NCBI GenBank assembly: GCA_963855995.1 | Contig: OY979717.1 | Coordinates: forward strand, 51,281,140-51,345,139 | From: Muricea muricata | Lineage: Eukaryota > Cnidaria > Anthozoa > Malacalcyonacea > Plexauridae | Reading direction: 5' to 3' | Length of the DNA: 64,000 nucleotides | In this document: positions 7,174 to 64,000 of the stretch, piece by piece | Layout: each line of letters starts with the position of its first letter | How positions within the stretch are numbered: position 1 is the stretch's first letter | Translations under genes and position numbers: made by a program | Notes under the pieces: model-generated | Told to the model about the DNA's origin: nothing | Databases searched by the model: none | What the model saw: the letters and a program-made list of their open reading frames with translations, nothing else

Positions 7174-10100
7174 TTATGCCCACTGTTCAGAGCAGCTCAA
7201 ACATTGCCAATGTTCTGGAATGCCATGTTCAGGTCTTAGATCAACACAAACTAAGTGGCTCCAGATAGAGCATCCATCGCAACTTATCCAGTCAACTACA
7301 GAATTATCCTCTCCAGCCGGATCTACCAATTTACAAACAGAACACACATCTGAATCTTCTACATTTGATATATCTACACTTGATTTTGTTGCCGCTGTTT
7401 TTGCTCTGCGTGTTTCAACTGCTTTCGCTGTCCCTTTCTTTCTATTTTCTGCAATCGTGTTTAAATGGTTGAACCACATAGAGACTTCTTCAGGAGAAAG
7501 CAATGTTCGTTTAGCTACATCTCGTACCATGTTATCATCAGGTATCTTTCTAAATTTATTATACTCTGTTTGGATAACTTCAGATGGGGGACGACACTCC
7601 ACATCACCACCTTCCGATGTAAACTTCCACAGATCATACAATTTGCGGTAATGCCCATAGCAAGCACCATCACATTCATCGCATTGTTCTCGACCATAGC
7701 ACCGTTCGGGATCAGGACAAGGTACGGGTAAAAAAGACAAAGGTGGGCCACCGACGTACCATGTTGGTTCTTCGTTAGGCTTACCTTTTTTACACAATGG
7801 ATGTTCACACTTTTGTTCATAACAACAGCTCAGGCAAAAAATATACTTTGATGGAACATCTGTTCTCATATGTCTTTTTCGTAGATTCCAAATCGCTTGA
7901 ACACGAGCATATTTCTCAGGATGATCTTTCTTTTGTTTTTCTTTTTCTTCTTTTCTCCCCTTGAAGAAAACTTTAAAAAACTCCTGGTATGCTTTACTGT
8001 CTGCCCCTTTATATAGATTAATAATAGTTCCTGCGCACGGAGTTTTATCAACCCTTGATAAATACACATCTATAACTGCATCCAAGTTTTTATGCAGTAA
8101 ATCGTGGTCAATGTTTCCACCACTAATGCAACAGCCATTAAGAGTGGACGGAATAAACAGACCAGCATGACCAAGGGCGAGACTGCCATTTTGTAATTCT
8201 ACGCGGTTCCTATAGCTCGCACCACTGTTTCTGGACGTTACTAACGTCATCCGGCTACTGGTTACAAGGTGACGAACTGTCCACCAATATTGAACCTCAC
8301 AGTGGGATGGGCCTTCGTCAAAACTTCCGTCAACTCGAGCGCACTCAACTTCTTTTCGTTCTTTGGATTCACTGTTCCAAAATACCTCGCGTATTTCTTC
8401 TTTTTCCTCTAGCATCTGAAGATCAGCATAATGTTGAGCTGCATTTTTTGCATGAAGACCTGGCGCTTTAACCACTCCAGCACAAACCTCTCCAGTTGTA
8501 GTGGTGGATGGAAAGTTATATGATGTCGTTTGCAGAGTTGAAGGGTACTTATTTACGTAATCATTCCTTGTCGTAGTAGTTTCCATACCTGTAACACAGA
8601 GAGTTGGATGTTGTTTGTGTGAGGCCATTATGTCCAGCCGAAACCCGGCTTGGTCATCCCTTTCCAATGTTAATAATATTCCTCCCATCTTTGCATTGAA
8701 TCGCCTCCAGTCCTCGGTAAAAGGCCGCACTCCAATGTGTGTCTGGGTTATAACGTATATTGAAGCCTTTTCTTGCTCGTTTACTTAAGACATTGGCAAC
8801 TCCTTTGTAGCGAACAGCAGACTTCCGTCTTTTATTACGCGCTATACACAACTGTATAACAGTGCCATACGCTATCTTTCGATTGTACTTCTCTTGCAAA
8901 TGTTCTTGTATACGTTTAAATGTTGCTTTCTTGTTTATCTTACGGTTTCCATCAAATGTTATCGCACCTGTTCTTCGCCATGCGTCTGCTCCAGCGCCGC
9001 GTTCTTTTACAAAATCCTCTATATCTTTTCCAATATTAGGAAATTGAGAAATGATTGTTCCAACCTTTTTACTTCTTCTTCTACTCAAAAAACGCTTTTC
9101 AGCTAATCTCTTCTTGATTGTTCGTGCATTTTTGCGTCGCATGGCCGCTCTTCGTTTTCTGATTAATATTTTGCCTCTTTCATCTAAAGCACTACTAACA
9201 CCCAATGCCCAAACTTCAGCTTCGCTGGATTCTGACTCTGATGTAATTTCTACAGAACTATCGCATGTAAAACTAGCTGGTGCAACTTCTTTGTTATTGT
9301 CCGTCGGGTCGTCGGGACATGTTGAATCACTAGTTACTGTATCATAACTACTCTCACGATCAGTCTCACTTTCAGTATCCGAGCCACTTTCACTGGATTC
9401 ACTTATTCCCAAAGGAAGTAGTACCGACTTTTCCTTAGTCTTAGCGATGTCTTCGATTGCTTGTCTGATTGCACATGCCTCCTCCATTGCTTTCTCTACA
9501 TCACTTATTTTGGAAGTCATGTCGTTAAATCCATAAACAGCTTTTGCTTTTGTGCTTGATATTCCACTTGATTTTACAACAGCATACTTTAATCTCTTTC
9601 TTTCACTTTCAGATTCCGCCAAATTCAATAGCTTTTTCATGTCTTCTTTCGTAAGTCCTTCGTTAGGTTGCTTTTTAATACATGTTTCTTTCAGTAGAGA
9701 TTGTAATACATACAAATTGGCAGGATTCTGTTTTTCCACAAGATATAAACAAGAGGTTCCTTCTATCAAACTACCTGTCCCAATCACTGCACAAGGCATT
9801 TTCAACATCTTTCTACGCGCATGCGCGGGTGTATACTTAACATTTGAACTGCACAGTTTTGCAGCATGTTTAAGCTTTATAAACCCTTCCTCATTCACAA
9901 TATTTGCTACGTTCAAAAGTCCTTCGCAGCTGTGTAAACATTCCCGACCATGACGCTTGTGCACGTTTGAGCAAACAAAAGCCATTGCTTTTACATACTC
10001 ATGTAATGAGAGACCCTCAAATTTGGAAACGTAAACATTGTCTTTCAACGAAACATAATTTGACAAGTTTTTTTTGTTCTGTTCAACGTAAATAGACACA

Positions 10101-12181
10101 AGCTCTTTTTCTCCCCTCCCACTGGGAGAGGACGCACCTAAAAAGGCAACTCTTGATCTGAATCGTCAGTCGGAATCAGGGTATCATCACTTTGTGGAGA
10201 ATGAACATCAATTCTGGCATTTCCATCAGCGGTTTCGTCTGCTTTTTCTTCCCTTACAACATCATCTGTTATGGTAATCGGTGTGGAAGTGCTTGCAACA
10301 TTTTCGTCACCTTTAAAAAATTTCGCGATCTTCTTTTGGCTTTCCTCTGGCTTCAACTGAGAACTTCCATCTTGTAATTTCGGTGCACCACTTTGAGAGT
10401 GAGCTCTCTTACGGTACCACGCAGACTTGGACGACTTCTTCTCAAGAGCTGACAACTGCTTGTTACAATCCGTTCTCTCTTTTATTAGATTCCTAACTTC
10501 ATCCATCAGTTGGTCTGCTACTTTAAAATCATTGATAGATTTGGCCTTGGTTATGCGCATTTCTTTAACACGCAGCTGATCTTGAAGACTTTTAAGCAGT
10601 TGTTTCAGATCTTCCACAGCTCTCTCTCTTTCTTCTTTACTTATTTTTGCTCTTTTTTTCACTCCTTCATCACTACTACAGGTACTTTCATTGCTAGACC
10701 CTTTTGATCTGGAATAGCCTTTTTTGAATTTATAGCCTCCTTCTCGGACCATTTCTTTTGCTTTTAGAAACAACTCTCCTACAAATAAAGTTTTATTGAT
10801 GAGTTTATGCGGTACGAATAATTAAATATTGGGCACATTCGATACGGATGTATCATACTAGCGAAGATAGTGAGGTAATGTTTTGTTATTTGAAACTCGC
10901 TGCAAAGTACTATCTGATAGACATGCTTGATTACACTACTTGACATAGAGGTGAATACTAATATTCATAACAGAGAACTTTAACTTAAATAAGAAACGTT
11001 TGATATATGCTTAATAAGGTTAATCAATCCTTGAACAGTGAATCTGCAAGTCTCCTCATGCTGACATACAGTATGTAAGTACCAGCAGACAAAAAACTAA
11101 ACATTAACTGCTGTATACAGTATGTACATATTTGTACATAACATATTATAGCTGTACCTCTCTGAAAAACTAGAGCAGAATTTTCCTGGACAAGTATAAC
11201 AGCTGCATTGTTGACAGCCTCTTCATAATCATTTCTCGGAGATGTGTAAATTTTAGCTTTCTCTGCCAAACCTGCGTTTTTTTTAGGTGCTGCAATTGTT
11301 TCCTATGTATATAAAACAAAGCAATTTCATCAATCATGTAAAGGCTAACAATACTTAACAACTTAATAGTTTGTTTTACCAACATATCCCTGGTCAAATG
11401 ATAATGTCCAATAGAATAATAAAACAAATTTTAATGCATATAATACTATGACAAATATTTACTCACCGATTCAAGTGGCATCCGTAACCCAATATTGCCT
11501 TCACTAATCATTAATCGTTTTTGCCTGTTGTTTGCAAATTGTATAGATGACGAATTTGTTGCCAAAGCACCATCAGACTTGGAAATATTGTTAATTAAAT
11601 AAAAGCATGTATTTGGAGGAAATTCAGAAAACACATCTTCATCATCAACAATGGACCGATCCTCTAGCATGACTTGCAAGTCATCAGAATTTGCAAGGCC
11701 AAGTTTAGTGCTTCCTACAAAACAAAAGAAAACAAGTATAGGTATTGATCATATCAATTAATATCCATACCAGTCAATACTTATCATACCTATCAACCAC
11801 AGAGATTATTCTACATCAAGTGAAGTGCCACAAAATTATAATTGATTTACCCTCAACCCTTTGCAGGCATTACCACCCAAAAATACACATTAATTACGCT
11901 TGCTCTTGGGATTCTGACATGTGTATGATTTCCACTTGACAAGTGCTCTTATTAAAGACACATCAACCATTCAACCCTCCCAGTTCATACTATATATTCC
12001 ACTTGAGCCTTGACATATAAATTAATATCATATCAAGTCATAATTGCATTAATCTACATTATAGCAAAGTATATTTTATATTCTTTCAACACGTACCTTT
12101 ATCTTTTAAGTCTGACAATGAGTTGGCACTGATACAAAACTTTTGTGGGTTTCTTTCACCCTGAACTTTGAACACAGGCAT
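7174..12181 (-). CDS. CIDE-N / transposase-like core / PHD-finger protein (frame-broken)
   Basis: Four minus-strand exons join in phase: 12181-12097, 11714-11467, 11302-11158 and 10778-7174. Each has GT donors and AG acceptors, and together they give about 1,360 residues. The start ATG at 12181 was chosen because CIDE-N homology begins there. Residues 1-75 form a CIDE-N domain (KVQGERNP..., then IVDDEDVFSEFPPNT), a fold known from apoptotic DFF/CIDE proteins. Next come a charged coiled-coil segment (ERERAVEDLKQLLKSLQDQL) and acidic linkers. The core has an FPNIGKDIEDF...AWRRTG region that looks like a helix-turn-helix, then NPDTHW, RVDG, DEGPSH and NRVELQNG motifs, which could supply acidic catalytic residues. 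The C-terminal PHD finger runs CSVCKL...CDGC...H..C...CLSC. The product is probably a nuclear transposase. The frame breaks in a T run at about 10132-10136 and by an extra base at about 8664. Its superfamily is not identified. Confidence 0.75.
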
Positions 12182-12719: not shown

Positions 12720-12726
12720 GCTGGAT
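12720..12726. repeat. Left 7-bp target duplication GCTGGAT
   Basis: Matches 30865-30871 exactly, directly outside both termini of the giant element. Confidence 0.9.
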
Positions 12727-13016
12727 CATAGGCGGCCCAAATCTTAGTGTTGTTTTGTCTTAGTGTTGTTTCGAATGTTTTCTCTATAAGCTTTTCGCTG
12801 TTTGAAAGCAAGAAAACACACGCGTGAAGAGATTTAACGTTCGCGTGACGCTCGCGCGCGTAGCGCTCGCACTTTCGTGTCGTCATGGTTTTAATATATT
12901 GACAAGGTTGGCCACAGGCGGCCCAGTTCAGTGTGTAGTTTCATATAGAGATCAGTAGCACAGAGTACTATACAGAGGGCTCACTCGACGAAAAAAGCGT
13001 AACGCGGATTGGTAGT

Positions 13017-13171
13017 TGTCAGGGGGTGACTGCCTCGATGCACTTGCTGGGAATTTAATCCCAGCAAGTGCATTGAGGCATTCACCCCCCTGTCAGGGGG
13101 GTGAATGCCTCAATGCACTTGCTGGGATTAAATTCCCAGCAAGTGCATAGAGGCATTCACCCCCCTGACAA
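13017..13171. repeat. Double hairpin made of four copies of one arm
   Basis: Two adjacent hairpins of about 77 bp. Their arms are alternating orientations of the same unit of about 36 bases (CAGGGGGGTGAATGCCTC ... CACTTGCTGGG), with TTTAAT-type loops. The second hairpin is nearly the inverse of the first, so the whole 155 bp can also fold as one long hairpin. A single degenerate arm recurs at about 16284-16331, near the other end of the host element. Confidence 0.9.
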
Positions 13172-15148
13172 TCTCAAAATGGCTCTGATATGCAAGGCGT
13201 CCAAATTGACAAAATAAAAACCAACTAAAAATATTTCTGTTGTCTCCATAAAATAATACTCGCACATAATCAAATTTGGCTACCCCAAATGCCACTGTCC
13301 TACCAGAAAACGAGTCAACGGATACAGTTTTCGAAAGTTATTTAATACTTTCTTTCGGTGCCATCGTTCAAGGAGTTGAGATGCAGCTGAAAAAGCCGTG
13401 GCTTCAAGTTCAAGCGTTTTCTGTGAACATACCATTTAAATTTATGTGGTGTTTCCATAAAATTATACTTTGAGCATGTCACTTCGCGTTGGATGCCAAA
13501 ACCAAAAAGACAGCAATCCGATAGAGAAAAAGAAATCTTATAAATAGTGGGAAAACGGTCAAGGGAAGGATTATAAACTATTTCAAATCATTCAAGACCT
13601 TTTTAGATTATAAAGAACTTTCAGTTGGACAAGTAAAAATGACTTCATATTTACGTGGTTCTAGTGACAAGAACTGGACCTGAGAACTAAAGGAAAGATA
13701 GCATAACATATAGAGTTGGATAACTATGTAGATATTCATTTTATTAATATATTAATGTATAGTTTTGGAATGAAAACACCAGCTTCTTTTGCTGGGATTT
13801 ATGTATAGTAAACCCTTCCTACTTTTATTGGCAATTGAATTAATCAAGGGAGCAAATGTAGATTAGACAGCCAAAAATGCACAGGTTGCAGCAAGTTATA
13901 AGAATTTCACAGGGAGATTTTGGAAGAACCATGAATGGAAGTTGATATGGGAAATATACAATTTCCCATGTCAAACTCACACATGGGAAAGTTGCACAAA
14001 TCTCATTAAAAAAGTGATATTTACCATTTATTTAAAATATATCCAAACCTCAACCCCTTGTGCTGATGTGCACCAGTCATGCTTGTTTCATTTTAAACAC
14101 TTAAAATATTACAATTAGCCAGTGTTGAATTCTAATGCAGTAGTGTTAAACATCTACATCTATATAGCATAACCCAGGCAACCAATCATGTTAATACTCA
14201 AATACACCTGAGGAGTGTAACAACATTCTGCCTGTTACATAAAACAAATTTGTCATGAATTAAAATGTAGATGTAGTATTTAATGGTTTATTCTTATAGC
14301 CTATTTGTTAAAAATACTGTATAAGATAGAAAGATCTTAGGGATGTGCTAGAGATTTTAACAAGGGGAAGGGTAGAAAATATGAAGAGGGTCATTTCAAG
14401 ACCCTATAAATGGGAGGGTCATGATAAAATGAGCTGCTTAAAGGGGAGGGTCATTCTAGTTTATGCTTCAAGGGTGGTAGAGCTCTGTTGGTACACAGTA
14501 TACTTAAAACAGATATTAATGGTGCTATATATTTGGTTCAACTACCAATTTAGGGTCTTAAAAAGTTATGATGCTACCCATGTTTCCACCCCTCCCGCCT
14601 CTTTTAATTTCTGACCTGTCCCTTGTAAAAGAAATTGCTACAATAAAGGAAATACCACAATAAAGAGAATAATCAGTAGGACCACACGGCAGAGAAGCAT
14701 ATCCCTCATGTTGTAATTATACAGCTCATATTGTAACAGTTGACACATGTTAATTATACACTAGAATGGTTACAGACACCAGACTGTCAGACTGAGGTGT
14801 CAATGTTACCTTGCAAGGCAAATCCTGAATTGGATATCATTGATCTGGATTAGCCCAATATCATGAATGAGAAAGCTGATTTAATTTTTTTTCAACTTCC
14901 AACAAAAAAGCTTACAAGTCGGTTGTCGTGCATAAAATATACCTTTATTACATACTTCAACAAGGTGTCATAAATCCCATCATCTGATACTTATAATTCT
15001 ACTTAATCTGGTAGTCATTGGGCATCTGTTCTGGATATTTCAGGGGATTATCTTCCTTCAAATGCTATTCCATCAATTCAAGTACGGTATATCATATTTC
15101 ACTGGCACATATAATTGTTGTCTTCATGATAGTGAAAAACATTGAAGT

Positions 15149-15445
15149 CTACCAGACTTTCATAGGAACAGAGCTTTGTGTTCCAACATCCTCACACATC
15201 TTGACATGGTAAGCCTGGAACTGCTCACTAAAACAAAGTGTTTCCAATGGCATATACTCAATATAGATAAAGTCGCTGATTATCCAAAGCACACATGTGG
15301 TTCCAAAGATGGGTCTAATGGACTCATCAACACTACAAATGACAATGCCACCACTTTTAAACTTGGTTCCATAGCAAGATGCCCTATATACATTCCGAAG
15401 CTGGATACCTGGTAGTAAGCTCGAAACATTTGATTTCTCTCTCAA
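15149..15445 (-). pseudogene. Degenerate transposon-like ORF fragment
   Basis: A minus-strand frame with protein-like composition: YGTKFKSGGIVIC, RPIFGT, then FSEQFQAYHV near its end. This order (a K(Y/F) beta strand, PxFG, then a conserved F..HF.AY-like segment) resembles C-terminal regions of uncharacterised transposon proteins in marine invertebrates. It ends at a stop at 15149 and no convincing partner exons were found upstream. It sits inside the third-level element and may be that element's decayed protein. The assignment is weak and rests on pattern memory only. Confidence 0.3.
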
Positions 15446-17639
15446 TGTGTGTTTCTCCGTTGGCCAAGTTTAGGGTGCCAAAGTTCCATTCAGAAGAGAA
15501 CAATGGGTGTGATTGTGGACCAGTATGGAAAGTATGGCTGTTTTTGACAAGATCTCAGGTGTGCATACAAAAAATCCAAGTGTACAGCGTGCAAAACCGT
15601 GTCAACTGCACTCAAGTGTGCATGTTTATTAGACAAGTAGCACTGATCAATGATAAGTTAAAATTAAATTTCAAAATGTATAATTAATGCATTCTTCAAA
15701 TAAAAATATCACACTCCTTTACTGAGTACCCAAATCACAAGATATTAAATTTTCGCCTTTTTCTATGCATCCTCCAGACCTCTCCAAGTCTTTCACACTC
15801 CCTACATACCTTGCGCATTCAGCGCAAGAATCGTAATCAAGTGTGCAAACCTGAACGTAACAAAAATTCTCGGGTGTGCATTTGCCATACTTTCCATACT
15901 GGATTGTGGAGCCTCGTCAACATCAGAAAAATTTCCACATTCTTTAAGCTGACAGCGTTCAGCCGAAGATTTTGTGAAGTTTTTAAAGTTTCGTTTCCGT
16001 GCCAGTTCCTTAAAGTAAAAGGCAGAACGACAGTTTTGATTTCCCACTCAAACGATATATAAGCCTGCTCGCAACTAGCAAACTTTGAAGAAAAAGGCTT
16101 GCATAAAATCGCTATAAACACATTTCCCATGGCTTGCAATTTGGACATAGATGTAAAATATATTACTTTCCAGTTTTTCAAAAAATAATATGTACTGTGT
16201 ACGCATCTTTGCTTTATCTTTGTTAAGATCTTTCTATACCGCCGTCTTTCCGCTCCTAAACATCGCCGCCATTTTGAATTTTTCAGGGGGGTGACGACCT
16301 CTCTTCAGCGCAGCGCACTTGCTAGCAAAAGGCCGTTACGCAAAAATCATAGGAAAAGTGACGAAGTGAGCCCTCTGTATAGTACTCTGTGTCAGTAGCG
16401 AGCGGTAGCGTATTGTTTTACATATATAAAATACATAAGGTAGGCAACTAAATTTCACCTGACGAACATATGACTTTTGTTAAACACAAAATACATCGCT
16501 CGTGGAATTAAAAACAGGTAAAAATTTATAACACGTTAATCTCCGATAATTTTACTACACATATTCAATGAAATTTGTCTTCAATGTTTCCGAATGGATG
16601 CAAAATTTGAACATATTTTTCATGTATTGACAAAAAATTTCTTGTCCCAATGCGGGATGCCAGAGGTTGGCGTACACGTCAGCCTTTAAAAAGCATTTAT
16701 AAACTCCTATTGGTGCACTTTTAACGAAATACTCATTTAAACCAATAGGAGTTTATAAATGCTTTTTAAAGGCTGACGTGTACGCCAACCTCTGGCATCC
16801 CGCATCGGGACAAGAAATTTTTTGTCAATACATGAAAAATATGTTCAAATTTTGCATCCATTCGGAAACATTGAAGACAAATTTCATTGAATATGTGTAG
16901 TAAAATTATCGGAGATTAACGTGTTATAAATTTTTACCTGTTTTTAATTCCACGAGCGATGTATTTTGTGTTTAACAAAAGTCATATGTTCGTCAGGTGA
17001 AATTTAGTTGCCTACCTTATGTATCTTATATATGTAAAACAATACGCTACCGCTCGCTACTGATCTCTATATGAAACTACACACTGAACTGGGCCGCCTG
17101 TGGGTTGGCAAGTATTTTCAAATCAAACTCATCGATAACTTTTACGAGTGCAAAAATCTTTAGAAACATCATCAATAACTTTTAAAAAACTACATAAATA
17201 TAATTAATTGTAATTTTTCTACATTCCTACAAAGTTTTAACTTAAAAAATCATTTCTAAGCAAGTTAAAAAAGCGAATTTCGGTCGGGATTTTGATAAAT
17301 AGTTTCAAAACCCATGCTGGGGTCGCCAACCCTATGCATACGTCACAGTTTTTAAATTGCGAAGAAGGCGATGATAGGCTGCTGTAAATAACGTTTTTCT
17401 TCAGAAATCCAGCAACAGGGGGGGTGCACATTAAAATTAGGACACAGGCGGTAACAAGGGGCGGGAAATTAAAAATTATATATGCGCCTGTACGGAAATA
17501 CGAAATTTCGCTATGTGCTAGCGCTTCACTTTTGCAGCGCAGGAGAGTTTATCGTCTCTGATATTACCGCTAAAAATACAGGTGTAGTTGTAGTCTTGGC
17601 AATTTAAATACAGTACATAGTTGGATTAGGTCTTTGATA

Positions 17640-18115
17640 AAGGCATACAAAAACATTTCAAAAGGTAAGTACATGTTTTTACATACTGTAAAGGTTAAAT
17701 ATTATAAACTGATTGAAACTTTTGCGATTTTGTTTTGTCTTTTGTAACATTACATTTTCTTTATAATAAAACATAAAACTCACGTAACTTATGGTCTATA
17801 TATGTTGCTTCACGTCTCAAGAAACAGTATGTAGGAAGAAGAAAGTCATGTAGGAAAGTTAAAGACCAACATTTCATCGGTAAGTGCGTTATTTTCATCT
17901 TTATATTAAGAAATGAAAGCTAGTGCTTTAGTCGCCAATGATATTTTTGTTTTTGCCGGCTTTTCATATAGTTTGCGACGGCTTTTCCCACTTATAACCT
18001 ATATAGGCATATTAAGTTTGATGTATATATTCACTACAGGACAATACAATAAAGAACAAACAAGTTGTGTAAACGTTTGAAGACCTTGGCCTGTATTTTA
18101 ATCGGTAAATGCAAT
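17640..18115 (+). promoter_or_regulatory. Candidate leader exons with splice donors in left arm
   Basis: Three consensus-like donors point inward: AAAAG/GTAAGT (GT at 17665-17666), ATCG/GTAAGT (17880-17881) and ATCG/GTAAAT (18105-18106). The last two lie in imperfectly duplicated blocks (AAAGACC or GAAGACC before the donor; TATTTTTGT...TTTTTG.CG after it). Because helicase coding sequence starts just after an acceptor (20100-20101), I infer non-coding first exons here that splice to it. The mirror copies at about 29674-30149 would serve the transposase. Confidence 0.45.
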
Positions 18116-18807
18116 CAGTTTTACCTTCATTTATCTGTATTTTTGTCGTAATTTTTGCGACATTTTAAGTCGCTTTATTCGTGATACCTTGGACGCCTTG
18201 CTTGAACATTGGATCATTAATTTGAAAAAAACCCTATATATGTATGATGTATAGCTATAAATTTTAATTTTTTATGTCCCTTACAAAACAGATATATATA
18301 TATACACATATATTTGCGAAGAAAGCAATCATATCGTTAGTCAATTGAAGATCGTCTTGATGTCATAATTTTTAAATTCAATCATACCAATCCTATGTTT
18401 TAAGGCATAACTAAGGTCTCTTGTTTAAAATAATTCAGTTGTTGCCATGAATAGAATACGACTGATCGATGAAAGCTTAATATGTGCTTAAAGCCTCAAA
18501 ATGTTTACTGTTTCATTATATTTCGTGTTGTATTTTGCAAACCAGAATGCTATTCAAAATGTAAAGTTTCCCGAAGAAATGATTGGCGGACTTGCTGTAT
18601 GAAGATGGTGCTCATGAGCTCTTTTGGGTAGCCTTCCAGCAAAATTCAAGCAATACTATATCATACACGCTTCGAGGTAAATTAAAAAACTATTTTTGCA
18701 TGCACGCTCGGGAAGAACGAAGTGTCAAAATAATAATGTATATAAAATGGCTGATTTCAGAAAAACTTACCGAGTTGTGCCGTGCATTGTTCATCCAATC
18801 GCTTAAG

Positions 18808-19001
18808 TTAATATACGATCAAAGCCTTTCCAAACACATTCACAGCCCACATTTATAATTCCACAAGTTCCAATAAAATATAGAGGAAAAAAACAAGTAC
18901 AAAGGTCTGTCAAAAAGCACTGGCAACAAGACAAAATTCATCGCAAGAAAAAGCGTATGAAAACGTTATCGTATGAGAAAAAACCGTTACCGCATTGCTA
19001 A
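18808..19001 (+). other. Small basic open frame in left arm
   Basis: From a possible acceptor (AG at 18806-18807) a frame of 63 codons runs to TAA at 18999-19001. It has no ATG before its lysine-rich second half, which reads KYRGKKQVQRSVKKHW and then HRKKKRMKTLSYEKK, nuclear-localisation-like. An identical copy lies inverted at about 28788-28981. It could be an alternative exon or chance. Confidence 0.25.
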
Positions 19002-20104
19002 GCACGGTGTTCTTACCTTACAATATTCGTTTTAAAGCATACATTTGCGAAAAATTGTCCAAAAAACAAGAGAAATCCAAGCACTTTTTAGCATGTGCAT
19101 CATTCGAACAAAACGAACAAGCAGGCGAGTGCTGACGCCACTTGAGAAAACCGGTTTGACAAGAATATTTTTAACTGAAGAACAACATGTTCGACCAATG
19201 AGAGCACGACAAGAAATTGTGTTGAGAAAATTCCGCAATTTTTGATTAGAACTCGTGTGTTTTCCTTCTAATTACTGTAAGCATATGTTTGATAACTATA
19301 CTTATCATATTTAGGTCACGCAACCACTATGCCACTATAGTTCATACGACGACCCTACAATATTAACCGGTATATGGCAGTGGAGGAATGTGATCAGGCG
19401 CCTATCACGTTTTGGTAATGCACGTTTAACATTTCAGCATGATCATGCAATAGTTAATTCTCCATTTCTTAATGTACTTTGATCAGTCCTAATTTTTAGT
19501 ACTTTATACTATACAAGCAACTTGTTGATAACTTTGAGGACACCGACGCCGGAACGTTTGTTGCTACGTAGACAAAACAAGAACGCCCGACTAAAATGAG
19601 AAATGTACTGTTGAGAAAATCTTTAGTGTTACATTGACTTAGAGACTCCTGAGTTACTTTATACAATAATACGTGTTCTTTCTGCATTTTCATTGGTCGC
19701 GAGCTGCGTGTTTTTAAAGTACACACGCACGGAGACGTCAACTGATGGCGTGATCTAATTTAGCTAATTTATTTTGCGGGTCTTGATTTTTGCCAACTTT
19801 ATTGTAATATAGAACAAATAGATTTTATTTTTTTGTGCTTCTGTACCGTAATAGATCACAGATGACGCCACAGCGTTTGAAGAACAAAAAGTCACGTTTT
19901 GTTCTCCACACGCCATGACGTCATCTGCGATCTATAACAGTACAGACGCACGCAAAAATGAAATCTATTTGTTAATTGTAATAACGCATATATTCGGCGA
20001 AATGTTTATAAAAATAAGGATAGTTTCAATGCGCTTATAGGTTATACTCCATGTATAATTATACGTTCATTCTAATTGTAGACCTAATACACCCGTTTCA
20101 GGAA

Positions 20105-21964
20105 ATGGATAGACCTCTGCATTTAACGGATGAACAGCAATTAATTTTGAACTTAGCAAAAAAGGGCCACAACACTTGTATACTTGGCAGAGCTGGTGTT
20201 GGAAAATCTACAACCGTCCAAGAAATCGAAAAGGCACTTTCGGCTCAGGGAAAGAAATGCCAAACAGTTTGCTCAACTGGCATTGCATGTCAGAACTACG
20301 GCGGTATAGCTAAAACCGTACATTCCTTCTATGGCCTTCAAATGGCAGAATTTCCATCCCAAAAATTAGTTGAGCGATCCGTGGTGCAAGAGAAGATCAG
20401 GAAGAATGTCAATGATACAGACGTTTTGATATGGGATGAGATTTCCATGTCGAGTTGCAGATTTTTAGAACTTGTTAACATGATTCATCACTTGATTTCG
20501 GATAACAACTTCGCATTTGGAGGCATACAAGTCATACTTGTTGGAGACTTTTGGCAATTAAAGCCAGTACCCAGTGTATTTGATGAGGGCAAAGCAATGT
20601 ACGAGTCTAAAATTTTCGACGAAGCGTTTCAGCACAGGATCGAGCTGACGAAAATTCTCAGGCAGTCGGATATGCGGTTCAAGAATTGGCTGGACATGCT
20701 GCGAGTCGGCGAATGCAGTGAAGAAGGCGAGGAGTATGCTCAGAGCCTCGACAGAGAAATAGCAACGGAAGAAGGAAACGAGCCCACCCATATCTACTTC
20801 AGAAAAGTCCATGTGGAATTCCATAATGGGACTGTGTTAGCAAGTCTTCCTGGCGGATTGATCTATTTTCAGAGTGTTGACACTGGCCACTTATCCGGCC
20901 TAGAGAAAAATATCCCAAGAATTGTTGCTGTGAAACCAGGATGTAAAATAATGCTGCTGTACAATATCAACGACAATCTAAAAAACGGGTATCAAGGTGA
21001 ATTCGTTAATAGTGATCCAGAAGACGAAAATAAAATTCTCGTGAGCTTTCCTACGGCTGGCACAGTTAGCTTAAACCGAAGAACGTGGATTAAATATGCT
21101 CCTGATGGAAGCGTTCAAGGTACTCGCACACAATTTCCTATCATTCCATGCTACGCGATAACGGTGCACAAGTCTCAAGGTTTGACATTGAATTCTGCTG
21201 TCGTTCACTGTTCCCAGGAGTTTGTCCACGGCCTAACGTACGTTGCTATGTCGAGAGTAAAATCGCCGAACAACCTTCGAGTAATTAATTTCCACCGTAA
21301 ATTCTTGTTGCCACAACCACAAGAACTGGTTAATCTTGCAAGAACTGTCACCCTAGAGCCAGACGACACTTACGCATGCTGCAGATATCGACCTCTGGAC
21401 ACCAGTCATTTTGTGAACGTCGACAGTATTATGCAACTTGAAGAGCAATCCACCAAGGTTACTAACGAAGATTTCGACACTGATGCAAATAGTGATGATG
21501 GAATCGAACGTGAAGAGTATTTTGAAACCAGCGAAGCAACGGCGACTTGCCCACTTGAAGACGTCCTGTTATGTTTGATACCACACTTTCAAACAGAATT
21601 GTCAACTCCACCAGCTACGTTCACCATGTTGACATTTCTTACCTCGATAATCACCAAGCATTCCGATTCCTACAGTGAGGCGATCAATGCTGCAGCGAAG
21701 TATGCCATCGACAATTTGGAAACATTTCAGTTATTAGGAAGCATACTCTGGTGCCGTATCGTTTTGTTGTTTGAGCAGCATTTGGCAGATAATCCTGAGA
21801 CTATCAACATAACGAACAAAGACTTTACTTGCGCGACATCAGGAATACACGAACTGTTTTTGTCTCGGGAATATCGCAAGGACCTGAAAACTGCTTTTAG
21901 CGTGAAAGAGCTTACCGTTGGGCAACGGACTCTTGGCGCGCATTTCATCTCTATCAAATTTTAA
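20105..21964 (+). CDS. PIF1-like superfamily 1B DNA helicase
   Basis: 619 codons from ATG 20105, which lies three bases after a splice acceptor (CCCGTTTCAG/G at 20101). The open frame extends further upstream, but the acceptor favours this start. It shows the helicase motifs in order: Walker A GRAGVGKST (about residue 31), STGIA, LIWDEISM (Walker B), LVGDFWQLKPV, LTKILRQ, then near the end of the core TVHKSQG and YVAMSRV. These are the hallmarks of PIF1/RRM3-type 5'-3' helicases. A 170-residue acidic C-terminal extension has no recognised domain. The frame is intact, without stops. There is no Rep/HUH nuclease, so it is not a Helitron protein. It probably assists replication or repair of the giant element. 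It reads inward from the left arm, on the opposite strand to the transposase. Confidence 0.9.
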   Translation: MDRPLHLTDEQQLILNLAKKGHNTCILGRAGVGKSTTVQEIEKALSAQGKKCQTVCSTGIACQNYGGIAKTVHSFYGLQMAEFPSQKLVERSVVQEKIRKNVNDTDVLIWDEISMSSCRFLELVNMIHHLISDNNFAFGGIQVILVGDFWQLKPVPSVFDEGKAMYESKIFDEAFQHRIELTKILRQSDMRFKNWLDMLRVGECSEEGEEYAQSLDREIATEEGNEPTHIYFRKVHVEFHNGTVLASLPGGLIYFQSVDTGHLSGLEKNIPRIVAVKPGCKIMLLYNINDNLKNGYQGEFVNSDPEDENKILVSFPTAGTVSLNRRTWIKYAPDGSVQGTRTQFPIIPCYAITVHKSQGLTLNSAVVHCSQEFVHGLTYVAMSRVKSPNNLRVINFHRKFLLPQPQELVNLARTVTLEPDDTYACCRYRPLDTSHFVNVDSIMQLEEQSTKVTNEDFDTDANSDDGIEREEYFETSEATATCPLEDVLLCLIPHFQTELSTPPATFTMLTFLTSIITKHSDSYSEAINAAAKYAIDNLETFQLLGSILWCRIVLLFEQHLADNPETINITNKDFTCATSGIHELFLSREYRKDLKTAFSVKELTVGQRTLGAHFISIKF

Positions 21965-22594
21965 CCGTTGAGATTGATAAGAAAGTTAAAAAGGTGGACG
22001 CAAAACCAATTGATTTTAACGTTACAGAAATGGAAGACGTTGGATTAGGAAAAGTACGTTATGTTGGTGCGTGGGCAATACGAAAGTCTCTTGACAAAAG
22101 TCGAAGGTATTGTAACAGCTGACGTTAAAAATACTCATTACTCAAAAAGCAGTTTGTAATACCCACGAGTCCGTAACAGGATTGAGATTAATCCTTATTT
22201 TAGGTACTAGGTGCCAGTAACACTGCAGTCTAACGTTGCACGCATAAGTGAGGTGTCAAAAAAAGCACAGGAAAACTAAACGCTATAATTGTACATATGG
22301 AGGTACAGACTCTCGTGTAAGTGGGGAAGTTTTCACTAGCTCATAATGTATTTTAAGCATTTTTTTCTAGAGCGCTATGAAGGCGGCGACCATATACTTC
22401 TCCTCAGCCTTTTCAGAGTTTTGATTGTTGCTGGCTCGAACACATCACTCGCGCATGCGCAAACGTATGAGGTCGGTGTTGGGGCCGGTTGTTTGAAAAT
22501 GCAGTTTCCAAATGCACGTTTTGAAGTTTTGCATATAATACCCTGCCATTTTGCGGCAACTCAGTAGCTTAATTCCTCGTTTTTTATGTTGCAG
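21965..22594 (+). other. Spacer between helicase and accessory gene
   Basis: No convincing coding sequence. It ends in a good acceptor (TTATGTTGCAG/G, exon from 22595), so it is probably an intron or 5' leader region of the following gene. Confidence 0.5.
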
Positions 22595-22601
22595 GTATGT
22601 T

Positions 22602-23591
22602 ATGGAAAACAAGAATTCAGAAGCTAGCAAGACCAGAGATCAGCTTAAAAAGGAGATGGGAATGCTGGATCTTTTGAATAACAACATAGTCATACCATAC
22701 ACCGTTATCGAAAAGTGTAGCGTCTACCCCGAAACTCTTAATGTCACCGAATCGCGTCAGTACAGAGAAAGAGGATTGCTGCACATCACCGACAGTTCAC
22801 ATGAATTCTTCTTGCTACTGGAGCAGGAACGAGTGAACCACATAAACCTCCAGATGTTTTCGTTGTTGAAGGTTGACATGGTTGACGAGTCTATTCGAGA
22901 TGTCCTAAAGAATGAAAGTTTGAAAAATAAATTCATTAGCTTGTTTGAAATTAAATCAGACGAAGAAAAGGTATTTAACAAAATTGAATCAGTACTAGCA
23001 TCAGCAACATACTGTAGTATAATAGTGATTAACGTGCATACGTGCATATGCATATTAGAATCATATGAATAGTACATAGTTCGTTGTATCTTTTTCAAGG
23101 AATTGGTACTGCAAATATTTGAAGAAATTGTTGTCCGCTACATGAAAATGGGCTGTGGACAATTTCTGAGAGGGTTTCGCCGCGATTTCCATCTAAAGAA
23201 GAGCATGGCACATCGGAAAGCAGTCTTAGAAAGAAAAGAGAAAGCCGCTGAAAAGCGATTGAAAGTCGAACTGGAAACGATAGAAAACGATAGAAGCCCT
23301 TCGAAACGTTCTTCTCATATCCGCCTGCTAGCTATGATTAACCAAGTGAAAGAGAAAGGTATGATGAGATTGTACACAAAAAATGAACTGCAGAAACTTT
23401 GTTCTGCGTATGGGGTTAGCTATATGACGAAATGGAACAAAACCAAGATTGCAAAGGAACTAACGTTGAAGGTTGTGAGTTGCACTGAGATGCCGTGCCA
23501 CGACGTAATGTCGCGATTCACTGTGGAAGAGGTGTCCACTTCCAATAACGCCCCACATCGACTCCCAGTACTGCAAATTCGACGCATCTGA
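22602..23591 (+). CDS. Element-borne accessory protein, SAP-like C-terminus
   Basis: Two exons, 22602-22991 and 23100-23591, joined in phase 0 (GAATCA/GT and CAAG/GAATTG), giving 293 residues. The ATG at 22602 follows an acceptor at 22594. Exon 1 is a leucine- and acid-rich region without a recognised domain. Exon 2 opens with a long amphipathic, basic helix (KKSMAHRKAVLERKEKAAEK) and then ELQKLCSAYGVSYMTKWNK, which resembles a SAP-type helix-extended-loop-helix DNA-binding motif. It follows the helicase on the same strand and could recruit it to element DNA. I do not recognise the family, and the SAP reading is tentative. The frame is intact apart from the intron. Confidence 0.65.
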
Positions 23592-24474
23592 ACTAAATAT
23601 GAACAGGAAATGTTTCTTGTTTGCGAAAAGAATTTCTGGTGACTATGCCGTGCAGTATAGACATGCATGTTGCAATTTAAAGTAGAGACATCTTGCAATT
23701 TAAAATATGAATAAAAGACAAGCAGTTGAGACTGTAGATTTTCGAATTAATTTCAAAGTCAAAAACAGACGGAATGACACAAAAGACTTTACATACAGCA
23801 CTGATATATGTACAGAGCAAGAAAGTGAGAGCACTGCGTCACCGGAAGCGAGACATTATCTAAAACTGCATGTTGAGTTATATTTACATGATATAGCTAA
23901 CAACTTGACACAGAACTGAAGGCTAGCAAAGAACTTCAGCTTTTTACATAGTAACGCTACATTATCCTTTCTATACAAAGTCGAAAATTTACGGTCTCTA
24001 CTGCTTCTCTTGTTCTTGTTTTATCCCAGTTTCAGCTTGATAATTGAAGAGGGGGGACATTCAATTTCATGCATACAGTTGTGTCCACGGGATCATGCAT
24101 AAGAACATTTGATTCGAAAAGAAATTAATAATGCTGAATATGAATATATGAATATTGCATGCAACCTCAATTATCGATCGAAATGGTTTATATATATACA
24201 CCGCTAATTCAAATTATAACATGGTTGATATACCTAAAGGTTTGCATTTTCAACTAAAAAGGACATCACAAACCAACAGGCATACCAGTAGTTGGCGGTT
24301 ATAATTTAAACGTTGTGATTTGATAGACATGTAATGCATATTGAGTACTAAAAATTGACGATCCAATGGATATTATCTTAACGTTAATTTTTTGAAATTA
24401 TTAAATGTACAAGATAACTATTTTTTGACCCACCATCATGTAGTCTAGTTGAAAGTTTGCCGGAAGAGTTTCAT
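23592..24474. other. Convergent 3' region, no gene seen
   Basis: AT-rich spacer between the ends of the plus-strand accessory gene and the minus-strand transposase gene. It probably holds both 3' UTRs. No domain-bearing frame was found. Confidence 0.5.
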
Positions 24475-27400
24475 CTATAAGAGGAGACCTGATGTTGCTT
24501 CGCAATTGGCTTTATTGGCTTTCCCAAAGATGCCTTCTTTTGGCAAGCCAGCAAATGAACTATTCTTCATGCCGCCGGTATTGCATTTTTTGCTAATTGT
24601 TGTTTGTCCAAGAATTACTGAGTTTTGTGTTCCCAGGGTGAGTTGATACGTTGGGTTCTCGTTTTGCCCGTTCGCTGCTCGTAACTGCGAAAAATGGTTT
24701 TCAACCACATCTTGATTGATGATCGCGGGTTTTATCAACGTACCAGGAAATTTGGAAAGTTTTGTGTTTACCATGGCCGTAAATCCCAGTATCATTGATT
24801 GTAAATCAAACCATAGTTTCTTAGAAATGAATTCTTTTTCATTAGTTGCTTCCCGCTGCCATTCACCGAAGAACTTTAGAGATTCATTTAGGTCTTGAAG
24901 ACGGGAGTCGTGTGGGTGATAAATAGCATGTCTATCCGAAAACAATTCTACCATTCGACTTGTGTGAGTTAAGAACAATATTGTCATATCCAACCTCTCG
25001 GGATTTTCACCTCTGATCTTTTTCAGATGCTCTTTATACGCCTTCAAAAAATTGAAAATATAGTAACTACTTGTTAACTGAGAGCAAGGTCTTTAGGGGA
25101 AAATATTTAACCGAGGTCATGCCGTATTGATTGAGCGACAGCAAGACCTACATATTTATATACTTCCATATTTTGCTTGTTTGTTGCTGTAGTGCATCAA
25201 GCATTTCGTAATGCCATACATATCTACTAACATATATACCAACAATTACCTTCATTAAAAATAACATCCTTTTGTCCAACACATCCTCAGCCAACCCATT
25301 CCTCATTCTAGAGCTCGGAGTGAGTTCAAAATGCTCCTCTTTAAGTCGTTCATGTAAAGGGCAAGAATTACTCTTCTGGTCCCAGAGATAAGCCTCTTTC
25401 CAGTGAGACCAGAAGATATTCTTGCCACCTTTGGTTAGCACTCGTTTACCCCCACGACTGTTGCTCTTCTCGACATTATTACGCAGTTTCTTAATGTTGT
25501 GCTGCATACAAACAGATAAAAGGGAGTTGTTTTTTGAACACGTCTATAACATGGCTTTTATGGCTTTGGTTTTCTCACCCATACCGACGCATTCCAATTG
25601 ATGCAAAACGTAGAAAAGGGGACAATATGCATTATCCACAAGACGAAAAATTGTGAACTAAGATACCTTGGAATCCATCGTGAATATCATTGGATCGCCC
25701 GTCAGCATGTTGTGGCCAGTGAAGTTTAAATCTCTTGGATTCGATGTTGGGAAATGGATCTTAATAAACTGGCGATTTGAATCGGCACCGTCACAAATCA
25801 TGTGATATATACTTAAATAAAAGGAGAGTTATACCAGTTAATGTAGTTTGAGTATGAACCATTAGAACTTATAATACTGTTACATAAACAAGTTTCTTCA
25901 TAGATAAAAATTGTACTATTTCCTTACGTAAATCCTGCCCTCTTCATCTGCATTACGCCTTCCAAAATTGTAAGTACAGGACTGAAGGTGAACATTGCGA
26001 CGTTGGGAAGTGGGCTAAGGGAAACCGGAAACCTCCATCACTTAGGATTATGAATTGAAGGAGGTGCGTAGCTAACTGAACGGATGACTCGCCTATACAT
26101 TTAAAAAAAGACATGTCAACCATATTGTATCATGTATCAGTGCTCAATGCAGACTGACTTATATTTGATAAACACTTCTACTCGAGTGCCTACGATAGTA
26201 CATTTTTACCAGATTTTATTCCTTGCAGCGCATTGTGGAATTCGCCAAGTGACACGATTCCTGTCAAGCGATGTTTACCACCTCTGACGGTCATTTGCAG
26301 GTCTTCCTATATACAGTAACATCTTTTACAATATATACATGCTTAATATACTACAATTTGAATTGTTGAGATTCAAATAACAGTGTATCGTGAACACAAC
26401 CAGACAAGGAACTATCCCGGAAAGGGAGGCGGTTTTAGTCTAACCTGGATTTTCATTTCGTCTATAATAAAACCGCCCCAGTAATCTTGGTCTTTCAGAC
26501 TTTGCTGCTCGGCCTCCCGTTTGCACCACGATATCATTTCGTAATTCCATCCAGGCTCTTGATGCACAGAATTTTTATAATACCTGAAAATTAAGAATAA
26601 AAATCATTAATGGTTTGTTTTAATTAAAATAGATATCTATAACACGATTACCTGATTAGACGACTACTTGACAGCTTCACAAATTCACGCATTGAGTCAA
26701 GCGCTTTGGGATTTTTACAGTAGAGATCCAAGGCGAATCTTACAATCCTGCAATTTCAATTACAAAAATACATACACGAAAGGTACAGGTTCTAAAACTA
26801 CTGGAAATGATGAAGGATTCAAAAATTTGACCTTGTCATATATGTCACCAACTTATCCCTTCACCTACACTTCCCCATGACCCTCGTTAATTACTAGTTT
26901 TTTAATTACGTTATATAGACTGAGTGTATTGTTTGGGGTGGCGGATATTCGATAGCAGACCAATCGCTGATGGTAATTTCGCACTTTCATGGTAATAATA
27001 TATTTCTAAGAAATCACACAATGCTACCTTGGATCCCATCTGTGTCCCTTGGGGGATTTTGCAGACAGTTGCTTCATCTGCTCATCCCAAAGCAATTTCA
27101 TATGAGGTGGCAAGGACGAGGTGTCGATCGTATTCACAACATCCAATATGTCGGCGTGATCTTCATCTAGGAATTCAACATAATCTTCATCTTTCAACCG
27201 TTGATTTTTTCCCTTCCTTATTTGTTTCTTCTGTTGATCCATCTTGCTCTCCAAGCCCTTCCTTGCCATAAATCGCTGGTTGCACTTGGGGTGTGGAGCT
27301 TGTTGGTGATTTGCGCTCTTACGCCTTTTATTCATCCTCTTTTTGAACAGCCTGAAGATGTATGCGCATTCTTGACAGCAACATACGCCTGTGATAGGAT

Positions 27401-28044
27401 TCGGTGGTGTTAGGGAAAATATGGAACAAGACAACGATACAACGAATGTCTTATCATCGTGGGAAACGACTTTCGAGTTGCAAACGGGAACTCTGTAATA
27501 GTCGTTTGCGTCGTCAGGAATTGGTTGTCCGAAGCACACACTTGCTATGTCCACGTAACGAATCGCTAGGTCAATGGAGGACAGATTAACGCTGAGGTCT
27601 TCCACACCCACGATACGTTTCATAGGAACTTCTCTCGTGTCGGCACGTTGATCCTTATTTCTGGTTGTGGAAGCATATACACACCAATTTGCAATGTAGT
27701 ACGCTGGCTGTTCTTCATTATAACAAGGTGCTGATCTTCAGTGCTTTTAGAAGCAATAAACCAGCCTTGATGGTTCACCAAGAGCAGTTGATTAACTAAT
27801 TCTAAGGTAGACTCGTCAATTACAAGTGGTTCCTGATTAATAGGAGGCCGCTCCACGAGATTTCCGTAGCCAGAACCATCATTGTTTCTACAGTCCTTTT
27901 TTGTCACCTTCCCATTCCAGATCCTTTTAATATAGATACCCAACGTCACTGAGTTAACGTTATAGCCAGCCTGTACTGCAACATTTAAAATCGATGACGT
28001 AGCAACAAACTTTCCTTCGGCGTGCTCATAGTTATTAAGCAACC
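24475..28044 (-). CDS. P-element/THAP9-like transposase (multi-exon)
   Basis: Minus-strand exons: about 28044-27028, 26747-26652, 26583-26445, 26306-26210, about 26040-25928, 25811-25667, 25501-25250 and 25041-24475. Every junction except the acceptor of the fifth exon gives consistent phase and GT-AG ends. Landmarks of P-type transposases appear in order: a CC..C motif, KGHRWDPR, GGFIIDEMKIQ (first catalytic Asp), TGIVSLGEFHNAL, MICDGADSNRQF (second Asp), DSKHNIKKLRNN, SRMRNGLA, and NQDVVENHFSQLR (catalytic Glu). The enzyme would cut and rejoin element ends in the nucleus. No N-terminal THAP finger was found in the first recognised exon, so an upstream exon is missed or it is absent. Frame changes near 27630 and in the fifth exon (about 26000) suggest a damaged copy or sequence error. 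Confidence 0.85.
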
Positions 28045-28266
28045 TTAAAAAAACAATTGATAGGACATTTGCTGTTTCCCCCCTTAGTTACCTAGTATTC
28101 TTGGGTTTCACGTGACGTCATAAATTTCGGTGGGGAGCAATTCTATTAAATCGAGACACAGTCATCAGATTAATTTAAATGTTCAATACAATTCTACAAC
28201 AGTAAGGTTGTCCTCACTTATAATCACTGCATAATAAAATAGTAAAATCCAAAAATAAAGTAGAAG

Positions 28267-30864
28267 AGTTGCTTGTATAGTATAAAGTACTAAAAATTAG
28301 GACTGATCAAAGTACATTAAGAAATGGAGAATTAACTATTGCATGATCATGCTGAAATGTTAAACGTGCATTACCAAAACGTGATAGGCGCCTGATCACA
28401 TTCCTCCACTGCCATATACCGGTTAATATTGTAGGGTCGTCGTATGAACTATAGTGGCATAGTGGTTGCGTGACCTAAATATGATAAGTATAGTTATCAA
28501 ACATATGCTTACAGTAATTAGAAGGAAAACACACGAGTTCTAATCAAAAATTGCGGAATTTTCTCAACACAATTTCTTGTCGTGCTCTCATTGGTCGAAC
28601 ATGTTGTTCTTCAGTTAAAAATATTCTTGTCAAACCGGTTTTCTCAAGTGGCGTCAGCACTCGCCTGCTTGTTCGTTTTGTTCGAATGATGCACATGCTA
28701 AAAAGTGCTTGGATTTCTCTTGTTTTTTGGACAATTTTTCGCAAATGTATGCTTTAAAACGAATATTGTAAGGTAAGAACACCGTGCTTAGCAATGCGGT
28801 AACGGTTTTTTCTCATACGATAACGTTTTCATACGCTTTTTCTTGCGATGAATTTTGTCTTGTTGCCAGTGCTTTTTGACAGACCTTTGTACTTGTTTTT
28901 TTCCTCTATATTTTATTGGAACTTGTGGAATTATAAATGTGGGCTGTGAATGTGTTTGGAAAGGCTTTGATCGTATATTAACTTAAGCGATTGGATGAAC
29001 AATGCACGGCACAACTCGGTAAGTTTTTCTGAAATCAGCCATTTTATATACATTATTATTTTGACACTTCGTTCTTCCCGAGCGTGCATGCAAAAATAGT
29101 TTTTTAATTTACCTCGAAGCGTGTATGATATAGTATTGCTTGAATTTTGCTGGAAGGCTACCCAAAAGAGCTCATGAGCACCATCTTCATACAGCAAGTC
29201 CGCCAATCATTTCTTCGGGAAACTTTACATTTTGAATAGCATTCTGGTTTGCAAAATACAACACGAAATATAATGAAACAGTAAACATTTTGAGGCTTTA
29301 AGCACATATTAAGCTTTCATCGATCAGTCGTATTCTATTCATGGCAACAACTGAATTATTTTAAACAAGAGACCTTAGTTATGCCTTAAAACATAGGATT
29401 GGTATGATTGAATTTAAAAATTATGACATCAAGACGATCTTCAATTGACTAACGATATGATTGCTTTCTTCGCAAATATATGTGTATATATATATATCTG
29501 TTTTGTAAGGGACATAAAAAATTAAAATTTATAGCTATACATCATACATATATAGGGTTTTTTTCAAATTAATGATCCAATGTTCAAGCAAGGCGTCCAA
29601 GGTATCACGAATAAAGCGACTTAAAATGTCGCAAAAATTACGACAAAAATACAGATAAATGAAGGTAAAACTGATTGCATTTACCGATTAAAATACAGGC
29701 CAAGGTCTTCAAACGTTTACACAACTTGTTTGTTCTTTATTGTATTGTCCTGTAGTGAGTATATACATCAAACTTAATATGCCTATATAGGTTATAAGTG
29801 GGAAAAGCCGTCGCAAACTATATGAAAAGCCGGCAAAAACAAAAATATCATTGGCGACTAAAGCACTAGCTTTCATTTCTTAATATAAAGATGAAAATAA
29901 CGCACTTACCGATGAAATGTTGGTCTTTAACTTTCCTACATGACTTTCTTCTTCCTACATACTGTTTCTTGAGACGTGAAGCAACATATATAGACCATAA
30001 GTTACGTGAGTTTTATGTTTTATCATAAAGAAAATGTAATGTTACAAAAGACAAAACAAAATCGCAAAAGTTTCAATCAGTTTATAATATTTAACCTTTA
30101 CAGTATGTAAAAACATGTACTTACCTTTTGAAATGTTTTTGTATGCCTTTATCAAAGACCTAATCCAACTATGTACTGTATTTAAATTGCCAAGACTACA
30201 ACTACACCTGTATTTTTAGCGGTAATATCAGAGACGATAAACTCTCCTGCGCTGCAAAAGTGAAGCGCTAGCACATAGCGAAATTTCGTATTTCCGTACA
30301 GGCGCATATATAATTTTTAATTTCCCGCCCCTTGTTACCGCCTGTGTCCTAATTTTAATGTGCACCCCCCCTGTTGCTGGATTTCTGAAGAAAAACGTTA
30401 TTTACAGCAGCCTGTCATCGCCTTCTTCGCAATTTAAAAACTGTGACGTATGCATAGGGTTGGCGACCCCAGCATGGGTTTTGAAACTATTTATCAAAAT
30501 CCCGACCGAAATTCGCTTTTTTAACTTGCTTAGAAATGATTTTTTAAGTTAAAACTTTGTAGGAATGTAGAAAAATTACAATTAATTATATTTATGTAGT
30601 TTTTTAAAAGTTATTGATGATGTTTCTAAAGATTTTTGCACTCGTAAAAGTTATCGATGAGTTTGATTTGAAAATACTTGCCAACCTTGTCAATATATTA
30701 AACCATGACGACACGAAAGTGCGAGCGCTACGCGCGCGAGCGTCACGCGAACGTTAAATCTCTTCACGCGTGTGTTTTCTTGCTTTCAAACAGCGAAAAG
30801 CTTATAGAGAAAACATTCGAAACAACACTAAGACAAAACAACACTAAGATTTGGGCCGCCTATG
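28267..30864 (-). repeat. Right terminal inverted repeat of the giant element (intact)
   Basis: Uninterrupted 2,598-bp arm. Left coordinate x corresponds to about 47789 minus x for the part from 17110 inward. Isolated differences from the left arm were seen opposite about 17374, 17766 and 18020. It contains the same candidate splice donors and small open frames as the left arm, pointing toward the transposase gene. Confidence 0.92.
29674..30149 (-). promoter_or_regulatory. Candidate leader exons with splice donors in right arm
   Basis: Mirror copy of 17640-18115 with the same three donor sites, oriented toward the minus-strand transposase gene. One identical promoter/leader module would therefore drive both divergent gene sets of the element. 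No transcript evidence is available. Confidence 0.45.
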
Positions 30865-30871
30865 GCTGGAT
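30865..30871. repeat. Right 7-bp target duplication GCTGGAT
   Basis: Matches 12720-12726. Removing everything between gives a continuous empty site in the upstream region of the CIDE-N gene. Confidence 0.9.
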
Positions 30872-35224: not shown

Positions 35225-35472
35225 CAAATAATGGTTTTCAAGAATTTTGATTGGTGCCTGACCAGTAAATATATGAGTCATCAGAAATTTAGTTTGTGAA
35301 GTGGAAACATTCAAAATCTGACACGGAATTATTCCAAAATCTGTGACCAGACGCCATATTTGATCTTTTGAGAAGGACTGAAGGTCGTTGTTTCGATTGT
35401 GCGAACTATCGATCCGCAGTTGGCCAGGTTGGGGTATTTTTTGATAAAAAGATTGATAGTAAACTGTTGAAC

Positions 35473-63631: not shown

Positions 63632-63633
63632 TA

Positions 63634-64000
63634 TGTCACCAACCTATCAAATATATCATGTTTCAGGTGTTTTGTTCAACCCACTAAAATTTGGCAAAGA
63701 CAAGATGATTAGAAATCAGAACTTTAATCATATATTTTGAAAAGAAATTTGCTGTGCACAATTTTTCTTATAATTCTGGAATTACTAATTTGGCTCACAT
63801 AGCACAATGATATAAGAAATTGTATAAATAGCAGAAAAATATGATTAAATACCAATATATACAATGGTGCAGGCATAGCTGAATTCAAATATATTCTGTA
63901 CTATGTCAAGCTTTATACAAAATCACCTTTAATTGCTTACTATTAAACAGTCCTTTCAAATGCAGATGTCTAAAACAGGTGTACTATTAATAATAACTCT
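63634..64000. other. Presumed RIC1 intron, nothing recognised
   Basis: AT-rich sequence with no exon, repeat structure or RNA gene that I could recognise. Confidence 0.4.

Follow-up and report, generated by a model that had tools for sequence, protein, structure and literature searches.

Does a PIF1-type helicase gene that lies between the long inverted arms of a P-like transposon belong to that transposon, and what might it do there? The question arises from a locus in the cnidarian Muricea muricata (assembly GCA_963855995.1, contig OY979717.1, forward-strand positions 51,281,140 to 51,345,139), a 64,000-nucleotide stretch that we call the window. The reading we favor, with a probability of roughly 0.6, is that the element at 12,727–30,864 belongs to a family of two-gene P-superfamily DNA transposons, in which a cut-and-paste transposase is accompanied by a PIF1 helicase that would aid replication or repair through the long arms. 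This reading builds on four direct observations, namely the anatomy of the element, a recurring gene pair, a correlation between helicase and transposase divergence, and constraint on the helicase between two subfamilies. The window copy is itself a broken member of the family; some sister copies have an open helicase gene. The parts of the window copy are as follows.

12720..12726: left target duplication GCTGGAT, directly abutting the element end
12727..30864: whole element, a P-like transposon of 18,138 bp including a nested insert
12727..12912, plus strand: left inverted arm, outer part, with terminus CATAGGCGGCCCAAATC and, at its end, subterminal motif AAGGTTGGC
12913..17102: nested 4.19-kb P-like element, with terminus CACAGGCGGCCCAGTTC, a 48-bp outer inverted repeat and a 7-bp duplication, GGTTGGC
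17103..19522, plus strand: left inverted arm, inner part
20105..22106, plus strand: helicase exon 1, the PIF1 motor; in this copy the frame breaks near 21.94 kb and the open reading frame (ORF) ends at 21964
22595..22970, plus strand: helicase exon 2, earlier taken as piece 1 of an accessory protein
23100..23591, plus strand: helicase exon 3, earlier taken as piece 2 of that protein
24475..28087, minus strand: P-superfamily transposase gene of about ten exons, borders read by eye, 5' end unsure
24475..25092, minus strand: last exon of the transposase gene
28267..30864, minus strand: right inverted arm, 2,598 bp
30865..30871: right target duplication GCTGGAT, directly abutting the element end

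A sequence-only reading of this stretch had described a 13.9-kb transposon with near-identical 2.6-kb inverted repeats and a 7-bp target duplication, and this description holds. The two arms differ at 3 of 2,598 columns, GCTGGAT stands directly outside both ends, and the length comes to 13,941 bp once the nested element (4,190 bp) and its 7-bp duplication are subtracted from 18,138 bp. The nested element, which splits the left arm of the larger one, is itself bounded by P-like ends (CACAGGCGGCCCAG). Because its longest stop-to-stop ORF is 155 amino acids, it looks non-autonomous. It inserted in the left arm of the larger element, within the subterminal motif AAGGTTGGC.

The minus-strand gene encodes a divergent member of the P superfamily. 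We placed three acidic landmarks by comparison (IIDEMKIQ, CDGADSNR and VVENHF), and a profile built from relatives of the protein found one match in the Protein Data Bank (PDB), the P transposase of Drosophila (E = 5.6e-18). The D...D...E landmarks read from the sequence alone are thus borne out, and the transposase lies inside the superfamily, not outside it. The element accordingly has a DDE/RNase H transposase of P type. The superfamily makes duplications of 7–8 bp beside inverted ends; here 7-bp ones flank seven of the ten two-gene copies extended, all five short derivatives fetched and the nested element. A structural alignment covers the GTP-binding insertion part of 6p5a (model 295–773) at the level of the fold, not residue by residue; PF21788, our test for that insertion domain, matches 4 of the 17 transposase relatives and not the window protein. 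No THAP domain was found in any of the 17 relatives (E ≤ 0.1) or in the window protein (E ≤ 1), whose 5' model is possibly incomplete. In a midpoint-rooted tree of relatives picked for their likeness to the window protein, a 100/100 branch separates the window protein, together with 24 relatives, from Drosophila P (a partial, long-branched row), three generic P-type copies of the same genome and Amphiura. The nearest named relative, from the octocoral Dendronephthya, is 66% identical. The window transposase is probably broken too: read by eye, it has two apparent frame breaks, its frame shifting where no splice site is visible; comparison with sister copy c12 adds small frame-changing indels, some of which are possibly lesions of c12. 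One transposase relative, P0150, is filed under a bacterial genome bin (Sedimenticola) on a 7.3-kb contig that is likely animal-host DNA.

The plus-strand gene encodes an SF1B helicase of the PIF1 family. Its motor matches Pfam PIF1 (E = 2.7e-25) and PDB entries named PIF1 (best E = 6.9e-50), and the top match to a structure model of a relative, P0104 from Glandiceps, is Pif1. The P0104 motor is 27–36% identical to human, Candida, yeast and Bacteroides PIF1 and 24% identical to Helraiser. The nearest named relative, from the octocoral Paramuricea, is 65% identical over 84% of the helicase. An intact helicase and a separate two-exon accessory protein with a SAP-like motif had been proposed from the sequence alone, and neither survives comparison. 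By BLASTP, the motor and both accessory pieces form a single protein in P0104, in P0031 (Paramuricea) and in P0055 (Oculina), and the first piece is matched at E ≤ 1 in 52 of 120 helicase relatives among the matches listed. Sister copies c12 and c41 each yield a 2,877-bp ORF of 958 residues with no internal stop when their three exons are joined at GT..AG junctions, and exons 2 and 3 contribute about 290 conserved residues to it. Exon 1 of the window copy is a net 7 nucleotides shorter than in these two sisters, and the same join there runs into 25 stops. Copy c47 likewise has a broken helicase gene, and the exons of c14 were recovered only in part, not to their ends. The SAP-like motif finds no Pfam support at E ≤ 1.

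We searched one genome, 453 Mb in 74 contigs, from which all copy counts derive; of its 509 helicase candidates, 71 were scored. Helicase matches (77) merged into 61 loci and matches to the last transposase exon (83) into 65. At 47 of the 61 helicase loci the transposase exon lies within 15 kb, in 46 of them downstream on the opposite strand, so that the genes converge; reciprocally, a helicase lies no farther than 15 kb away at 48 of the 65 exon loci. By simple arithmetic, chance would give about 0.3 such adjacencies. Of 723 candidate generic P-type RNase H matches, 150 were scored, and 3 of these have a helicase at most 15 kb away where 0.6 would be expected. The association of helicase and transposase is therefore general in this genome. 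It had been foreseen that the helicase and accessory gene might be absent from all other copies. The helicase recurs with a convergent transposase exon at those 46 loci; the accessory pieces also recur at helicase loci, though as helicase exons and not as a gene of their own. Among the 30 helicase loci taken with 1.5-kb flanks, two of which are parts of one helicase, the first piece is present at 25 and either piece at 26. The proposal of a giant P lineage that acquired a replication-type helicase draws support from this recurrence and from the P-superfamily transposase. The further idea from the sequence-only reading, that such an element might move or persist otherwise than by ordinary cut-and-paste, stays a conjecture.

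We extended ten two-gene copies, the window included, and found long arms with a 7-bp duplication in seven.

Window copy: GCTGGAT
c12: GAATCAC
c41: ATCACAC
c14: GTTATAT
F12: ATACAAC; helicase 52% identical to the window's
F15: GTTTAAA; helicase 47% identical
F8: GTCTCAC; helicase 52% identical

Copies with both ends found measure 11–15 kb overall, with arms of about 1.8–2.6 kb. In c47 the arms are present and one end only was matched; in F7 the arms span at least 464 bp and are 95% alike, and the ends were not found. The left arms of c12 and c47 contain an insert, as in the window. The arms of F8, F12 and F15, which represent three families, are unrelated in sequence save for a terminal CA(T/C)AGGnnGCCCA and a subterminal motif, AAGGTTGGCAAGTA, that F8 and F15 have in common with the window and c41. 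F7 has a variant of this motif, AAGGTTGGCAACTA, and none was seen in F12; the motif may be a binding site for the transposase. Four copies (the window, c41, F12 and F15) have a helicase match that starts no more than 0.6 kb from the inner edge of one arm and a transposase match that stops close to the other arm; because the matches of both genes begin or end near these edges, the arms may serve as twin promoters. Five short derivatives fetched after a search with an arm probe (L079–L083; 298 bp to 1.9 kb) have the same ends and 7-bp duplications, so the element's machinery appears to have mobilized non-autonomous copies.

The two genes have diverged together. Helicase and transposase distance matrices correlate at r = 0.94 over 29 of the 46 convergent pairs, namely those for which both sequences were available, and none of 2,000 permutations reaches this value; a less redundant set of 24 pairs gives r = 0.93 (0 of 2,000). 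Many diverged relatives in the genome have retained this two-gene arrangement, so the pairing seems to be old and maintained, not accidental. Among the pairs listed, the ratio of nonsynonymous to synonymous change (dN/dS) in the helicase is 0.11–0.16 in the four comparisons of the window copy and c12 with c41 and c47 (21–22 synonymous and 9–13 other changes), and the helicase is under constraint between these subfamilies. The same two subfamilies are 2.8–3.1% apart in either arm. Within a copy the arms differ at 3 of 2,598 columns in the window, 2 of 2,594 in c12, 2 of 2,561 in c41 and 7 of 2,469 in c47. Nearly every difference between subfamilies sits in both arms, as if one arm had been copied from the other.

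How does this lineage compare with elements already described? Like P elements, whose ends are CA...TG, these elements end in CA...TG, and they share the transposase fold and catalytic residues of Drosophila P and THAP9. In the sections of PMC7776569 drawn on here, Drosophila P is a 2.9-kb element with 31-bp repeats, 8-bp duplications and a THAP domain, whereas the present elements have 11–15 kb, arms of about 1.8–2.6 kb, 7-bp duplications, no THAP domain found and a helicase. Galileo, a P-superfamily element of Drosophila, comes closer: as described in part of PMC2775673, its arms reach 1.2 kb, its 7-bp duplications have the consensus GTAGTAC, and in two copies the arms are more than 99% identical within a copy and about 7% apart between copies. 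The same part of that paper mentions no helicase of Galileo's own, unlike the elements here, whose arms reach 2.6 kb. Several duplications in our set read GTnnnAC or RTnnnAC, and the likeness to Galileo described here is one of anatomy. In RAG-like transposons the pair is RAG1L and RAG2L, and the second gene is not a helicase. Those transposons each carry two convergent genes (PMC7204232, in part), and the present elements resemble them in having a convergent gene pair within one transposon. We also compared superfamilies in which a helicase accompanies transposition. Kolobok elements make TTAA duplications; here the transposase is of P type, not Kolobok, and the duplications are 7 bp. KolobokH, one lineage of that superfamily (DDD/E), carries a RecQ helicase according to part of PMC9587614. 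A transposase from another superfamily and the 7-bp duplications distinguish our elements from KolobokH. Helitrons have neither inverted arms nor target duplications; we rejected Helitron membership on the 7-bp duplications and on the tested ORFs, which had no Rep domain match. Helitrons and Helentrons encode their helicase as a fusion with a Rep nuclease (PMC6431247, in part); the likeness is a PIF1-family helicase inside a transposon, seen in the match to Helraiser. No helicase in a P-superfamily element turned up in the literature searched, a scope that did not extend to Repbase.

Other readings of the gene pair have to be weighed against these data. A chance nesting or adjacency of two unrelated elements, one a P element and the other bearing the helicase, is close to negligible as an explanation, although the window does hold one nested element: diverged families keep the same gene order inside arms and target duplications, the adjacency is far above chance, and the copies examined already contradict an accidental composite. 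The helicase might instead be a passenger or regulator that the P element acquired, with no part in transposition (serving, for example, in anti-silencing or a host service). This view gains from the fact that we link helicase to transposition from sequence alone, and that the consulted portions of the Galileo and Drosophila P papers mention no helicase of their own. We consider it unlikely, given the convergent layout at most helicase loci, the correlated divergence of the two genes and the constraint between subfamilies, where a neutral passenger would decay. Rather less likely still is a replicative element that the helicase copies out, in Helitron fashion or by break-induced replication of the whole element, in place of cut-and-paste. 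Arms homogenized within copies would suit such a mechanism, and the Helitron protein Helraiser includes a PIF1-family helicase (7lcc, a weaker match than PIF1); it has to contend with a P-type DDE transposase with conserved acidic residues, with inverted ends and 7-bp duplications, with Rep/HUH domains unmatched in any ORF tested from the window or relatives, and with a P0104 motor nearer to PIF1 than to Helraiser.

Several observations also weigh against the two-gene transposon that we favor. No convergent transposase exon lies within 15 kb at 15 of the 61 helicase loci, and 17 of the 65 transposase loci have no helicase; the counts are no census, because only that fraction of helicase candidates was scored, and the evidence is drawn from one genome. 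The correlation of 0.94 is partly due to deep groups, a near-identical group around the window and six diverged D-group pairs. Of the copies extended, D85 is the most diverged; it has both genes, its helicase being 32% identical to the window's, and within the range retrieved no long inverted arms were seen. Helicase dN/dS rises to 0.20–0.36 in four comparisons with c14 and to 0.51–0.69 in five further pairs, every one of which includes a truncated or stop-bearing copy. The arms of c14 are 3.2% apart (42 of 1,302 columns, with only half of the right arm in hand). Galileo arms are likewise homogeneous within a copy, so the helicase is not proven to cause arm identity.

On the two-gene reading, the P-type DDE transposase, expressed from the minus strand starting near the right arm, would act on ends of the form CA(T/C)AGGnnGCCCA, excise the element and reinsert it with a 7-bp duplication; we infer this cut-and-paste chemistry because of the transposase family and the target duplications. 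The convergent gene near the left arm would supply a PIF1-type helicase with the exon 2–3 extension. Helicases of this type are 5'–3' by family, and PIF1 is known for break-induced replication and for unwinding structured DNA. Here it would most likely help to copy element DNA during donor-site gap repair or replication, acting through or from 2-kb inverted arms that would otherwise fold back, and near-identical arms within a copy would be the trace expected of arm-to-arm copying. The anatomy supports the cut-and-paste half of this scheme only; the role of the helicase is inferred.

Elsewhere, the window contains neighboring minus-strand ORFs of 503 and 227 amino acids at 8654–10821, with no Pfam match above the cut-off, perhaps a mobile element or a host gene; an inverted repeat at 62456–63634 (505-nucleotide arms, 99% complementary, 169-nucleotide spacing); and tandem arrays from 48354 onwards (15-bp period, probably 30-bp higher-order) and at 35432–36235 (84-bp period). 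At G000:C1:92918488-92953174, five P-type transposase matches at near-equal spacing of about 8.57 kb resemble a tandem array of a P-like unit.

Taken further, the data invite the tentative and still doubtful idea of an ancient helicase-assisted P branch in cnidarians, hemichordates and possibly molluscs, in which PIF1-driven, arm-based repair or replication, by arm-to-arm copying and donor rebuilding, would make transposition in effect copy-making. For annotation, some coral genes labeled 'ATP-dependent DNA helicase PIF1' may be transposon genes. With this lineage one can also test directly by what means long inverted arms keep their identity within a copy, as they do in Galileo. P elements are textbook single-enzyme cut-and-paste transposons, and a lineage that has kept PIF1 through deep divergence suggests that such transposons can take on a share of the DNA work that others leave to the host.
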